Assembly (NCBI GenBank): GCA_001692895.1
Contig: KV748177.1
Span: 1,240,001-1,304,000, forward strand
DNA length: 64,000 nt
Reading direction: 5' to 3'
From: Cenococcum geophilum 1.58
Lineage: Eukaryota; Ascomycota; Dothideomycetes; Gloniales; Gloniaceae
Part shown: positions 43,467 through 53,511 of the stretch, in pieces
How the letters are laid out: the number at the start of each line of letters is the position of its first letter
Numbering within the stretch: the first letter of the stretch is position 1
Position numbers and translations under genes: made by a program
Notes under the pieces: generated by a model
Databases searched by the model: none
What the model saw: the letters and a program-made list of their open reading frames with translations, nothing else
What the model was told of the DNA's origin: nothing

Positions 43467-45611
43467 ATGCCGCCTGCCCATCCATGTGGGGATGCGTATA
43501 GAAGGGTATATGTAAAGGTTATCTTCTGGTTAGGTGACTACGATGAGATTACAGAAGAAGTAAGTACCTACACGCTAGCCTCCGCTCATCCCAGCTGACC
43601 CATCAGGCTCAAAAACTTATACAAGCTTTCAAATTATTTGGATATGAGGTCGAGGTAATCGCTCTGCCATATGTGGGCTCTTTAATACCTTTTTTGGAAT
43701 CAATTACACTGGAACCCCGTGGCCTTTGCGCACATGATCTTCAAATGTGGTGCTATGTCGGAGGTACTCGAGTCCTCAACACTAACTATGATGACTTAAC
43801 GTCAGTTCCCAATTGGGAGATGAAAAATGGTGGGCAGCCCAATAATTAGAGTATCCTTGGCAGTAGCGCCTTCTTGGCTGACCCGTTCATTCTTTTATAT
43901 AAGGCATGGACCCTTGCAGACCAACAGCATGCTCACTCAACTGGCTTCCCGACATTGCATTCCAAGCACAAAATTCGGATTCCCTAGTTATCTTCGATTC
44001 GTATCTTGATATGAGCAACGAGGTTCAAGATTTCTTGCAAAATTCAATCAGAGAAGCTCATAGTACAAGTTCCTTTCGTTTTGAGATGCTCTGTCCATGG
44101 TACTCTAAGATCGACACGACACCAGGAACATGCTTCGGACAACTTTCGGGGTTGCTGAGAGATAACGCAAGAGATCATATCCCTGTACGGAGAAAGACGA
44201 ATATCGTTTTCGACTGGTTGAATTTAGTAGAGACCCTGAAAGCTATCCGAAATTATGATCACAGTAGCGGGGGGATCCTACTTCAGCCAAGTACTCAGCC
44301 AGTTTCTCAGCCGCAAGAGCATCGCCACATTACACTACTGAAAATCGGCAGCGTCAAAAAGGCTGTGTATGAAGAAAACGGTCTAAAGGCAAACTTACAA
44401 CAGCAATATTATCAAATATATAAGCATAGCTAATATTGATACAAGATTACTATCGTCGATCCAATTTCGCTCGTGTCGAAAGAGCTCAGGGCAAGTTCGG
44501 CCTAAGTTTGTTGCATATTACCAAAGCTAACTCCAATGCAAGTTTATTATCCAAGAGCTAGTTCAAGAAGACCGCGTAACGAGCGTTTTAAAAGCGAGCC
44601 TATGTGGTCCTAATGTATGTTCGATCACTACCAAAATCTCGGCCCAATGTATTAACATGTTGTATGTCTTAGACTGCCTATGCTCTTAAGGTGCTGAGGC
44701 CCAGAAACATAAGTGAAAGGGCCTGTATCACGCAATGTTTCAACCGAGAACTAGAAACACTGCGAACCGTTTCTTCTCGAAAGCATAAGTGCATTATAGA
44801 ATTTTCGGCCTCCTTCGAGGTCCCCTCTGCACATCCGTTTGGCCACTATGGTCTCATCTTTCCATTCGCAGATGGTGGTAATCTCCATGAATTCCTCAGG
44901 CTTCCAGAAATTCCAGCTTGGCTTGCTCCCCTGGCCAGTAGGAGTAGTTTATGTGAAGTTGTTTACACTCGGGTGACAGGGCTTATGGATGCCCTTGCAT
45001 TTGTCCATTGTAAGTCTCCACCGTCAAAGTATCTCATCCACGGTGATATCAAGCCGTCAAACATTCTCATCCATGGCGGGATATTCAAACTAGCCGATTT
45101 CGGAGTTTCCCGATTGAGAGGAAGTGAGGAAACATCGAAAACATGCTGGGAAGCCGGAACGCTCATGTACGCACCACCTGAACACATGGCTGCAATTAGT
45201 CGTCACGGTCGGGCTCGGGATATATGGGCTCTCGGCTGCGTCATTTTGGAAATTTTAGTCCTCCTCCTTTATGGATTCTCGGACCCACCACAAGTGGAAA
45301 TTTTCGAAGAGGAACGAGAAATTTTCGGTGACGGAGTAAAAGCCTTCTCTAATACTATGGGTTGCGTTGAAAGTTGGATCGCAAAGCTCTGGGAAATGGC
45401 CCACGCTGCAAAGAACATCTACGTCGACGAATCTGATAAGCAGAAGGCACTCCTCAAGCTGTTCAACGTTATGGGAACTATGTTAGTCAAAAACCCGTCC
45501 GATCGAATCACGGCTGCGGGGGCTCGTGACTATTTAGCGTCTTCTGGAGAACCTCGGAATGAGCGCATTCTTATGATCAGCCAGCGAGGGCTAAGTTATA
45601 ATGATACCTAA
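43467..45611 (+). CDS. Degenerate caspase-like domain fused to a protein kinase
   Basis: Six exons by my reading: 43467-43559, 43607-43829, 43904-44380, 44430-44494, 44543-44614 and 44673-45611 (622 aa, frame-consistent). Residues 14-200 follow the fungal caspase-like (C14) pattern: VKVIFWLGDYDEITEEAQKL; DLQMWCYVGGT where catalytic His (usually YAGHG) would be; SDSLVIFDSYLD where the catalytic Cys (usually DCC) would be. Both catalytic residues are missing. From about 285 a protein kinase: a Gly-poor loop, AYALKVLRP (Lys316), HGDIKPSNIL (HGD, not HRD, Asp435), ADFGVS (Asp452), and APPEHMA. Start ATG 43467 has a CACACCATG context. Introns 2 (GTGGGC) and 3 (GTCTAA) have weak donors, so the middle of the model is less certain. 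Likely a self/non-self or stress-signalling protein (inference). Confidence 0.68.
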
Positions 45612-49738: not shown

Positions 49739-52700
49739 TTATCTCCAGCCAAGCTTTTGAGGAAGCCTACGTTGTTTAGAAACTAGCGTATTCCCTCGTG
49801 TGTTGGAATGCAACATGCCTTGAGAGATAATTGGAGTGCTATAACCCGTGGCGTCTGTTGAAATATTTCTCTCGCTGGCTGAAATATGCAAGGAACTAAG
49901 CCTTTCCCGTATATCTCGACACTTTTGGTGGTCGTCTCCAAAGACATTCTGATAGCCTGCCAGAGCCCTCAAGTACATTGCTCTAGCTCTACCTTTGTCG
50001 CCTTGGCTGGCAAATAGAATGCCTAGACTATAAGCGGTATTAAGCGCCGGTATATAAGATGCAGCGATGTCTGGACCTAGGGCTTTCTCATATCCTTCTA
50101 GTGCTCGCTGGCACATCTTCTCCGCCTCGCCCAGCTCGCCCTGGTCCATGTAGAGAACGCCCAAGTTGTTGACCGTGTCAAGTGTCGATGTGTGGTCCGG
50201 CCCAAGCGCCTTCTCATTTCCTTCTAGCGCTCGCTGGTACATCTTCTCCGCCTCACCCAGCTTGCCCTGGTCCGCGTAGAGAAGGGCCCAATTATTGACC
50301 GTGTCAAGTGTCGATGTGTGGTCCGGCCCAAGCGCCTTCTCCTTTCCTTCTAGCGCTCGCTGGCACATCTTCTCCGCCTTACCCAGCTTGCCCTGGGATC
50401 TGTAGAGGATGCCTAAGTTATTGACCGTGCCAAGTGTTGATATATGGTCCGGCCCAAGCGCCTTCTCCTTTCCCTTCTAGCGCTCGCTGGTACATCTTCT
50501 CCGCCTTACCTAGCTTGCCCTGGTTCACGTAGAGGGTGCCTAAGTTATTGACCGTGCTAAGTGCCGATATACAGTCCGGCCCAAGCGCCTTCTCCTTTCC
50601 TTCTAGCGCTCTCTGGTACATCTTCTCCGCCTCACCCAGCTTGCCCTGGTCCGCGTAGAGAAGGCCCAAGTTATTAACCGTGTTAAGTGTCAATGTGTGG
50701 TCCAACCCAAGCGCCTTCTCAATTCCTTCTAGTGCTCGCTGGTACATCTTCTCCGCCTCACCCAGCTTGCCCTGGGATTTGTAGAGGCTGCCCAAGTTAT
50801 TGACCGTGCTAAGTGTCGCTATATGGTCCGGCCCAAGCGCCTTCTCGCGTCCTTCTAGCGCTCGCTGGTACATCTTCTCCGCCTCGCCCAGCTTGCCCTG
50901 GTCCGCATACAGCATTCCCAGTCCATGAATTGCACCTAGCATTACATAATCCTGCTTAACATCCGCTCTACTTGGGTTAGCTCCTTCCAATCTAGCCCTA
51001 GTGCCTGCTACTCACCCTATAACCCACTGATTGCACCGCTGCGCATGAGCTAGGAGCCGACGTTGTATGCTTGAATACTCCTTCTCTGAAGTCTCCGGCA
51101 CTGCCCACCCGACTACTACTACCGCAAGCCAGGTAAAGACAGCCCGCTGTTTCTCGTCCTGCATATGAAATGCCCATCTATGCACAACCGGGTGAGTCGC
51201 ATAGCCTGCTAGATCCTGCAAGGCCTCGACGAGAGAGTAGCTGCGCAAAAGTTGCATTGTCGCAACAAACTCAACTTCATTGTTCGCGATGTTAGGAAGC
51301 CACTCTGACAAATAATCCGCCACGACTGTAGATTGTATTCCTGCTTCTGCTTTTGCGAGGAGGCCGTACCACAGGTCTTTATTGTCAAGACATGCCCAGA
51401 ACAGAAGCAAGTTAGCTGCGGCCATGCTTTTTGTCCGAATAGCATAGTACGAAATCGTCCACGTCGTCCACACGCTACGGCCGGGATAATCTCGAAGTTG
51501 CATGCCGGCTCGGTCTTGAGATTCCATAAGGCTCTTCCATTGCTGCTTATAAAGCTGGATATATTTCGCAACACTAATTTCGCTCTGTCGCAGGTATGCG
51601 CTAGCCTGCGCAATTGCTAGCGGTAAGCCATCAAGGAGCCTAAACAGCTCCTCTCTCTCAGCTGAATCTGTTCCGGAACGGTTAGCATTGGTATTGTGTG
51701 CATGCAACGCAATTACACCATAGCGTTATCTTACCATAACTACCCCCATACCGGCTCTGAAACATAGCCTCTGTCTGCTCCTTACTAAGCCTCCCTAGCC
51801 TCCATGACCCACCAAGCTGTTCTAAGTTGGCGAGCCGGGTCGTAATCAGAACCGATCCGTGATCTGCACTAGGAAGGTAACGTGTGACATCGTATGTATT
51901 AGGGACGGCATTGTCCCCTCCGCTCTCTCGGTCGACGTTATCGAAGATGATTAGCCAGTCCGTGTTGTCTGGCCGGCCCAGCCAGCTCATTACATCCCTA
52001 ACGGCGGCATCGATATCGCCAGCACTTGTAATGGAATACGCTTTACTAGTCTCTACAATTTGGACTTCTAGGATCCTGCTTGCACAAATCGCAATACTCT
52101 GCTTAAGATTATCTTCAGTTCTGCCATCCAGCCAAAACACTGAGCTGAACTTTCGGTGGTGCCTCCTTGCAAACTCCACGGCAAGTTGTGTCTTGCCTAT
52201 TCCGCCAAGCCCGTGGAGCACAAACACCTTCTGGCGGCCGTTTTGTCTCTGCGGTAGAAGGGCTTGTTCGAGTTTGGTTATATCGGACGGCCGATCCACA
52301 AACTTGTTCACTACAGACACACCTTGCAGACTAAACGGTGTCCGATAGTTTCCTATATCTAGGGAGGAGCCTAGTTAGCTATATAGAGCAAGCTATATCT
52401 TACGGCGAAACAATACACTAACATTCTCTTCCGGACATGTTATCGGCGCAAGCCTTCATCTGCTTAAATACCGCCTGCGACTCAATGTATCGATCTGTGG
52501 CCGCAATAATTGCATTCCTCTGCTTTGAGTCTTCTAACCCAACATCCTCTAGTCCTCTTAACACGTTAAACCGATAGTACCGTCCCGTGTCATCTAGCCG
52601 TGATTTGTCGCGAGAGAATCGCTCTGCTGTTTTTTCCGTCTCTGTGGCAATCGCCAGCAGATTCTGGCCAATACCAATTATATCGTCTTTGAACGGCATA

Positions 52701-53511
52701 AGCGACGGAACGCCCGTCCCAATTGAGACCAAACACTTAATCTTGTCTTCAAGCAAGCCAGATGGCCACATATCTTGAGCCTCATTCCACACTTCATACA
52801 CCGGGTTGTTCGCTCCTGTAGCCCCATCAATAAAGCTCTCCTCAAAGTCACCGATGGAGATGGGATCGAAGAAGGACGAGGCTGCCGATGTCGCTCGGCC
52901 TGCTTCCCATATCTTGGTGGTACGAAGCAGTCGTTCGCGGCCGCGTGGCGAGCGGTAGCTGGTGAGCCGCACCGTATCGCCCGTCTCGCTGCTCATTGCA
53001 CATACGAATCTATATCCAACTCGTTAACGTCATCACAGCCTCGCACACAGGTGGACCTCTACTCACACTTTGCACTTCGCATCCGGGGCGTCCTTTAACA
53101 GCGTATCCTCCGCCAAACTTTGTCTCACAACGATCTCTTTGATCGCGCGCTCTAACTCATCCGAATTAAATCGTCCTTGGACCCGGCCCTTGATCGTCAC
53201 ACGGTGTCTCTGCTTCTGGAAGATCCTGTCTGACAGCAAGACATATGCGTCAATGCACTCATCAACCGTCATCCGAAGCCGACCGAGCATGATCGCTATG
53301 AGCCTGCGCTTCTTGTCAGCCGTAAATTCAGCAAAGCAATCACTACTAACCCGCCAGTGCTGGTGCCTCCGATCATGTCGAAGTAGTCGCAAGGCTTCGG
53401 CGGCGATTCTGGGTCGATGGTGTCCATCAGCTGCTTCAAGATCTGAAGCGTCGACAGGCCGCGAACCCCGCCGCCGTCGAGAGCGAGCAGGCGGAGTTCA
53501 TGCTCGGGCAT
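49739..53511 (-). CDS. Fungal NLR: patatin-like phospholipase, NB-ARC, TPR repeats; 1-bp frameshift in the repeats
   Basis: Six exons: 53511-53351, 53303-53067, 53009-52423, 52358-51735, 51667-51016 and 50970-49739. N-terminal patatin domain: oxyanion loop LALDGGGVRGL, nucleophile Ser51 in GGTSTGG (spliced next to intron 1), and catalytic Asp194 in IDGATGANNP, all intact. NB-ARC: P-loop GLGGIGKTQLA (about 378-388), Walker B DWLIIFDNVD, RNBS-B GSVLITTRL and GLPLAIAQA. A helical region follows, then at least seven 42-residue TPR units (DQGKLGEAEKMYQRALEG). An extra C in 50472-50474 shifts the frame to a premature stop near 50418; without that base the frame continues to 49739 and the lengths give 1163 aa. 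It matches known fungal NLR architecture (heterokaryon incompatibility/immune-like). Introns carry CTAAC branch sites. Confidence 0.88.
50040..50940 (-). repeat. Seven near-identical 126-bp (42-codon) TPR repeat units
   Basis: The anchor CATCTTCTCCGCC recurs at plus positions 50114, 50240, 50366, 50493, 50619, 50745 and 50871. Spacing is 126 bp except one of 127 bp, which marks the inserted base. Units differ at few positions, such as the residue after ALEG and the PDHxxTLxTVNN segment. High internal conservation of this kind is typical of fungal NLR repeats that exchange units. Confidence 0.93.

Follow-up and report, generated by a model that had tools for sequence, protein, structure and literature searches.

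A predicted gene of Cenococcum geophilum that probably joins a caspase-like domain without its catalytic dyad to a protein kinase

Gene model and neighborhood of the locus

The window, which is the whole 64,000-nucleotide stretch of DNA analyzed here (Cenococcum geophilum 1.58, contig KV748177.1, positions 1,240,001 to 1,304,000), carries on its plus strand a predicted gene at positions 43467 to 45611, which starts with an ATG at 43467 and has its stop codon ending at 45611. Six putative exons, bounded by GT-AG introns with boundaries inferred from the DNA sequence alone, form a chain that stays open over 607 codons, and the six spliced exons in one frame proposed in the initial annotation are borne out to this extent by the reading frames. 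The exons and the neighboring genes, in window coordinates, are as follows.

43467..43559, plus strand: exon 1, carrying the start codon and the first strand of the predicted caspase-like domain (VKVIFWLGDYDEITEE); ATG, open frame, and GTAAGT donor
43607..43800, plus strand: exon 2, predicted caspase-like domain with YVGGT replacing the His motif; open frame and GTCAGT donor at 43801, phase 2
43920..44380, plus strand: exon 3, second half of the predicted caspase-like domain, with FDSY replacing the DCC motif and last strand HRHITLL; alignment to relatives
44430..44494, plus strand: exon 4, short linker exon, uncertain; one among several open splice chains
44543..44614, plus strand: exon 5, kinase subdomain I, lacking the glycine-rich loop (ELVQEDRVTSVLKAS); GTATGT donor at 44615 and alignment to other kinases from this genome
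44673..45611, plus strand: exon 6, remaining kinase domain with YALK, RELE, HGDIKPSN, DFG, PPE, DIW, and DR; PF00069 and the kinase profile built from the same genome
46.2 to 47.5 kb, plus strand: PhyH gene (E value of 4.1e-21), downstream of the kinase gene
48.4 to 49.2 kb, plus strand: DUF2306 membrane protein gene (E value of 3.2e-14)
49739..53023, minus strand: NLR gene with patatin-like and NB-ARC/AAA regions and with TPRs recognized by eye

Exon 3 sits within an open frame extending from 43903 to 44433. Intron 2 has two workable readings, one with the phase-2 donor at 43801 and the other with exon 2 ending at 43829, and the linker between exon 3 and the kinase can be crossed by three one-intron and eight two-intron chains that remain open. 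The gene is present as a single copy, with no second match by DNA or by N-terminal protein sequence in searches that covered the 177-Mb assembly (162 contigs). The in-frame codon usage scores of the six exons range from -0.287 to -0.001, inside the intergenic background (95% point, 0.026), and the frame used scores best of the three in exons 1, 3, and 6. Neither RIP indices nor codon usage gave a clear signal.

The uncertain linker exon leaves room for a reading with two neighboring genes, in which a caspase-like gene would end near the stop at 44430 and a kinase gene would start from an ATG at 44369 or 44255. These two ATGs, both outside the exon 3 frame, each reach the kinase by five open chains, and the simplest chain, from 44369 with one intron at 44381 to 44542, gives MKKTFIIQELV. 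However, a separate kinase gene is judged quite unlikely, because it would have to start within the caspase-like exon, whose frame is open on the same strand, leaving no room for a promoter of its own. The initial annotation had instead carried the frame straight through a catalytically dead caspase-like half into the kinase, and the open spliced frame supports this as the predicted arrangement.

The NLR had been pointed out as lying 4 kb from the gene, and the distance, 4.1 kb, stands; however, the NLR is on the opposite strand with the PhyH and DUF2306 genes in between, and for these reasons it was rejected as a functional partner. The NLR is a separate gene, and the 607-amino-acid protein contains no NB-ARC, NACHT, or repeats. 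The TPR array of the NLR is split across two overlapping frames near 50,420 to 50,480 and may be frameshifted or misassembled. A screen of the genome for NB-ARC domains found at least 34 places and missed this NLR.

A divergent caspase-like domain at the N terminus

Exons 1 to 3 encode a domain of about 250 residues that is not recognized by direct searches. No Pfam match was listed for it at E values up to 10, its best match among PDB sequences has an E value of only 0.41, and translated and BLAST searches of its own genome revealed no relative. A PF00656 search of the genome gave six places, and the gene at 43467 to 45611 was not among them. Of the two domains that an HMM search of the spliced protein had been expected to find, the kinase was matched, but Peptidase_C14 was not matched directly.

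Caspase-like relatives were sought in the same genome with a fungal caspase-like query sequence, which found 18 pieces assigned to 11 genes (within L041 to L058); ten of these were built into a profile, and the near-identical eleventh was omitted. PF00656 is matched by eight of the ten relatives at E values up to 0.1 (the best being 3.1e-7), and the caspase-like Raptor_N domain is matched by two. Searched with this profile by hmmsearch, the N-terminal domain ranked first of 1000 sequences with 7.9 bits, and the best of the 999 shuffles reached 2.5 bits. With hhalign, the domain scored 41.7, or 44.8 with a better splice model, compared with 30.1 for the best of 500 shuffles, 11.5 for the reversed query, and 20.8 for the highest-scoring of 73 open-frame stretches taken from the window and from the kinase loci. 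When each relative was left out in turn, the score of the domain stayed between 35.6 and 47.2, and the ten relatives scored 159 to 308 in the same test, which places the N-terminal domain as a far outlier. The significant match spans residues 13 to 140 (hhalign E value of 9e-6), and the second half, when tested by itself, scored 15.6, which is at the control level.

The intron positions of the gene and of its relatives, which are themselves inferred from sequence, point in the same direction. Intron 1 is in phase 0 and falls at an equivalent residue in six of the ten relatives in an alignment read by eye, with the context EITEE/AQKL in the query and E/VxxL or E/IAKL in the relatives (the slash marking the intron). 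A phase-2 GT ends the second exon in all nine relatives having that intron, as at 43801 in the query, although some relatives also carry nearby GTs in other phases at intron 2.

Structure prediction gave no such indication. The exon 3 half was modeled by AlphaFold2 with a mean pLDDT of 54.1 (11 rows), and the near-complete relative L046 was modeled with 54.2 (17 rows). Foldseek searches against the PDB found no match at an E value of 0.001 or below for the exon 3 half, and likewise none for L046, which has an intact His and Cys. No caspase is present among the best 50 of 141 matches of the exon 3 half or the best 50 of 124 matches of L046, and one apoptosome entry among the Foldseek matches listed is a 1139-residue chain with an E value of 4.2. 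Because L046 failed as well despite its intact dyad, the outcome for the exon 3 half says little. The ten-relative profile also had no good match among solved structures, with Metacaspase-4 at an E value of 0.83 ranking below two unrelated matches.

The lack of Pfam and PDB matches, the nonsignificant second half, and the missing caspases among the Foldseek matches listed are all in keeping with another alpha/beta domain that is unrelated to caspases. We regard this origin as very unlikely, as the profile match exceeds all controls and the intron positions and phases are shared with the caspase-like family. The results support the N-terminal domain as a divergent, distant relative of fungal caspase-like proteins, with a similarity beyond chance that lies mainly in residues 13 to 140. 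The caspase-like order originally read from the sequence across this region is supported, as a matter of sequence similarity and shared intron positions, for the first half but not for the second half.

Loss of the catalytic dyad

In the query, YVGGT stands where the relatives have a His motif of the GGHG, AGHG, or TGHG type, and FDSY stands where they have a Cys motif such as DCC, DSC, or DTC. The catalytic His and Cys are both kept in all ten relatives, and the query has neither. The two replacements named in the initial annotation are thus both present, with both catalytic residues gone, and the combination of a catalytic HG histidine and a DxC cysteine expected of an active protease is missing from the N-terminal domain. 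Ten columns are invariant across the ten relatives, and the query retains W, L, G, D, and D and is unmatched at the other five in the alignment used. The catalytic His column corresponds to T or G in the query, depending on a one-residue gap, with no His present, and the catalytic Cys column corresponds to Y. The remaining three unmatched columns (L, I, and Y) precede the His, in a stretch where the alignment seems to be one residue off register. The query and the relatives therefore share motif order, the W, L, G, D, and D residues, and intron positions and phases, but the relatives keep the His and Cys that the far more divergent query has lost.

In phylogenetic trees, the caspase-like half lies on a branch of 8.0 (median, 1.64), a rough value for which the query carries a long-branch warning. 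The kinase half lies on a branch of 1.17 (median, 1.31), and the contrast between the two is biased, since similarity to the kinase studied here determined which kinase relatives were used, whereas no such selection was applied to the caspase-like relatives. Such uneven branch lengths would fit a gene in which the protease half alone was released and the kinase was constrained.

The kinase half

The spliced protein matches PF00069 with an E value of 1.3e-25 and 90.7 bits (cutoff, 31.7), and exon 6 matches a kinase profile built from the same genome with an E value of 4.6e-53. In an alignment with 12 kinases of this genome, the domain retains the Lys (YALK), the alphaC Glu (RELE), the HxD Asp and the following Asn (HGDIKPSN), the DFG motif, and an APE-like PPE, which we take to be the catalytic motifs of the kinase, as well as the F-helix Asp and the late Arg. 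The glycine-rich loop GxGxxG, however, is replaced by QEDRVTSV, and the glycines are present in all seven relatives that reach that region. The description of this half as an intact kinase thus holds for the Lys, DFG, and APE-like motifs but not for the loop, and kinase activity is probable but not certain. HGD in place of HRD had also been singled out as a peculiarity; it was rejected as a special feature, as the Arg is likewise replaced in 11 of the 12 aligned kinases (L014 keeps it) and its loss is usual in this kinase family.

The replaced loop, set against the glycines of the seven relatives, would also suit a protein that is noncatalytic as a whole, with a pseudo-caspase and a pseudokinase serving as a scaffold or decoy. 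The other catalytic residues of the kinase are kept, and this possibility appears improbable. A gene in early decay, in which both halves of a caspase-kinase fusion are losing their function but stops have yet to accumulate, would account for the loss of both protease residues together with the glycine loop, for exon codon usage within the intergenic background (even though the chosen frame outscores the other two in exons 1, 3, and 6), and for the single copy with no other match in the genome. We consider decay unlikely, since 607 codons without a stop and usable splice sites remain and the kinase half retains its Lys, Glu, Asp, Asn, DFG, and PPE. The gene model is real and divergent, and it probably encodes a pseudo-caspase kinase.

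Other caspase-like genes of the genome

The same genome carries a second predicted gene with this domain order. In L041 (G000:C17:1253487), the caspase-like domain retains HG and DCC, and behind it lies a kinase-like domain that matches the kinase profile (hhalign E value of 1.5e-5) but has lost the HxD Asp and DFG. The catalytic losses of the two genes are therefore opposite, L041 having kept the protease dyad and lost the kinase residues. The kinase match of L041 starts about 330 residues past the caspase-like domain, whereas the linker in the present gene is about 35 residues long. Because the linker of L041 is far longer and its kinase-like domain lies on a very long branch, the two genes are probably independent fusions. 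The two domains lie at 1360 to 3552 of L041 and continue in L059 (G000:C17:1253346 onward).

Among 1530 ORFs from 29 of the 89 other kinase loci, no convincing caspase-like domain was found (best E value, 0.26), in a scan that would miss divergence like that of the query, whose own exon 2 ORF scored 2.9 bits and ranked sixth among the window ORFs.

Several other caspase-like genes differ in what surrounds the domain. In L053 (1402 to 3212; G000:C35), a subtilase-like domain (PF00082 E value of 1.5e-4, just under the cutoff) comes after the caspase-like domain, giving two protease-like domains in a row. Two further caspase-like genes, L050/L051 (C14:1007097) and L049/L052 (C48:1171957), are almost identical although they lie on different contigs; they seem to stem from a recent duplication, and their sequences part ways after the domain. 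L055 and L048 (G000:C27:68030-69934) are tandem caspase-like genes, and L048, in which the reading frame changes past the DSC motif, may be a broken gene.

Comparison with known systems

In filamentous fungi, gasdermins are controlled by fusions of an S8 or CHAT protease with a kinase-like domain (PMC12881547). As in the present gene, a protease is joined to a kinase-like domain in these fusions; however, their proteases are described as being of the S8 or CHAT type and are presumed to be active (PMC12881547), whereas the domain in C. geophilum is caspase-like and without its dyad. With such protease and kinase-like fusions published and L041 being one of this kind, the architecture is not new in itself, contrary to what had been suggested at the outset. 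What is new is the swap of the dead and live halves; the type of fusion is already known in fungi.

Caspase homologs without the dyad are also known, and pseudo-orthocaspases, TbMC4, and cFLIP often have both residues replaced (PMC6426788). TbMC4 and cFLIP act as partners of active forms (PMC6426788). The authors of that study believed that, cases such as TbMC4 aside, pseudo-forms of caspase homologs occur only among prokaryotic orthocaspases (PMC6426788). The commonest substitution in pseudo-orthocaspases is Tyr-Ser, compared with Thr or Gly and Tyr here, and in the portion of that study used here, none of these proteins is described with a fused kinase such as that of the present gene (PMC6426788). 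Kinases and peptidases are among the effector domains of fungal NLRs (PMC10197012).

Among the matches listed by word searches of the open-access literature, there was no fungal pseudo-caspase-kinase fusion, which is weak evidence of absence. To our knowledge, RIPK1/RIPK3 and MLKL have no caspase-like domain. They join a kinase or pseudokinase to a death-signaling module (PMC12881547) and are comparable to the present gene in this respect.

A possible docking switch

As a tentative explanation, in which we place somewhat less than even confidence, a single gene would code for a pseudo-caspase with a protein kinase attached, the dead half acting as a docking or dimerization switch. Our confidence is lowered because candidate separate kinase starts exist and because the trees carry a selection bias. 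Under this explanation, a single transcript would cross both halves and the protein would be made and active. The caspase-like half would have lost proteolysis and would probably serve as a docking or dimerization module. The partners of the dead domain could be the fungus's own active caspase-like proteins, in the manner of cFLIP and caspase-8, or alternatively oligomeric death complexes. Binding to caspase-like partners would then regulate the kinase, with proximity turning on the attached domain, which may phosphorylate a downstream signaling or death protein.

A broader and more doubtful reading is that caspase-kinase fusions in fungi have swapped roles, with the kinase killed in L041 and the protease killed in the present gene, so that the dead caspase would act as a receptor within the protein itself, sensing the state of active caspase-like death proteins and converting it into phosphorylation.

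Should the protein indeed be produced, it would represent a eukaryotic pseudo-caspase coupled directly to a kinase, and it would make it simple to study the connection between caspase-like domains and signaling in fungi, about which little is known. L041 and the present gene, a mirror pair in one genome with the same domain order and opposite catalytic losses, provide a natural comparison.
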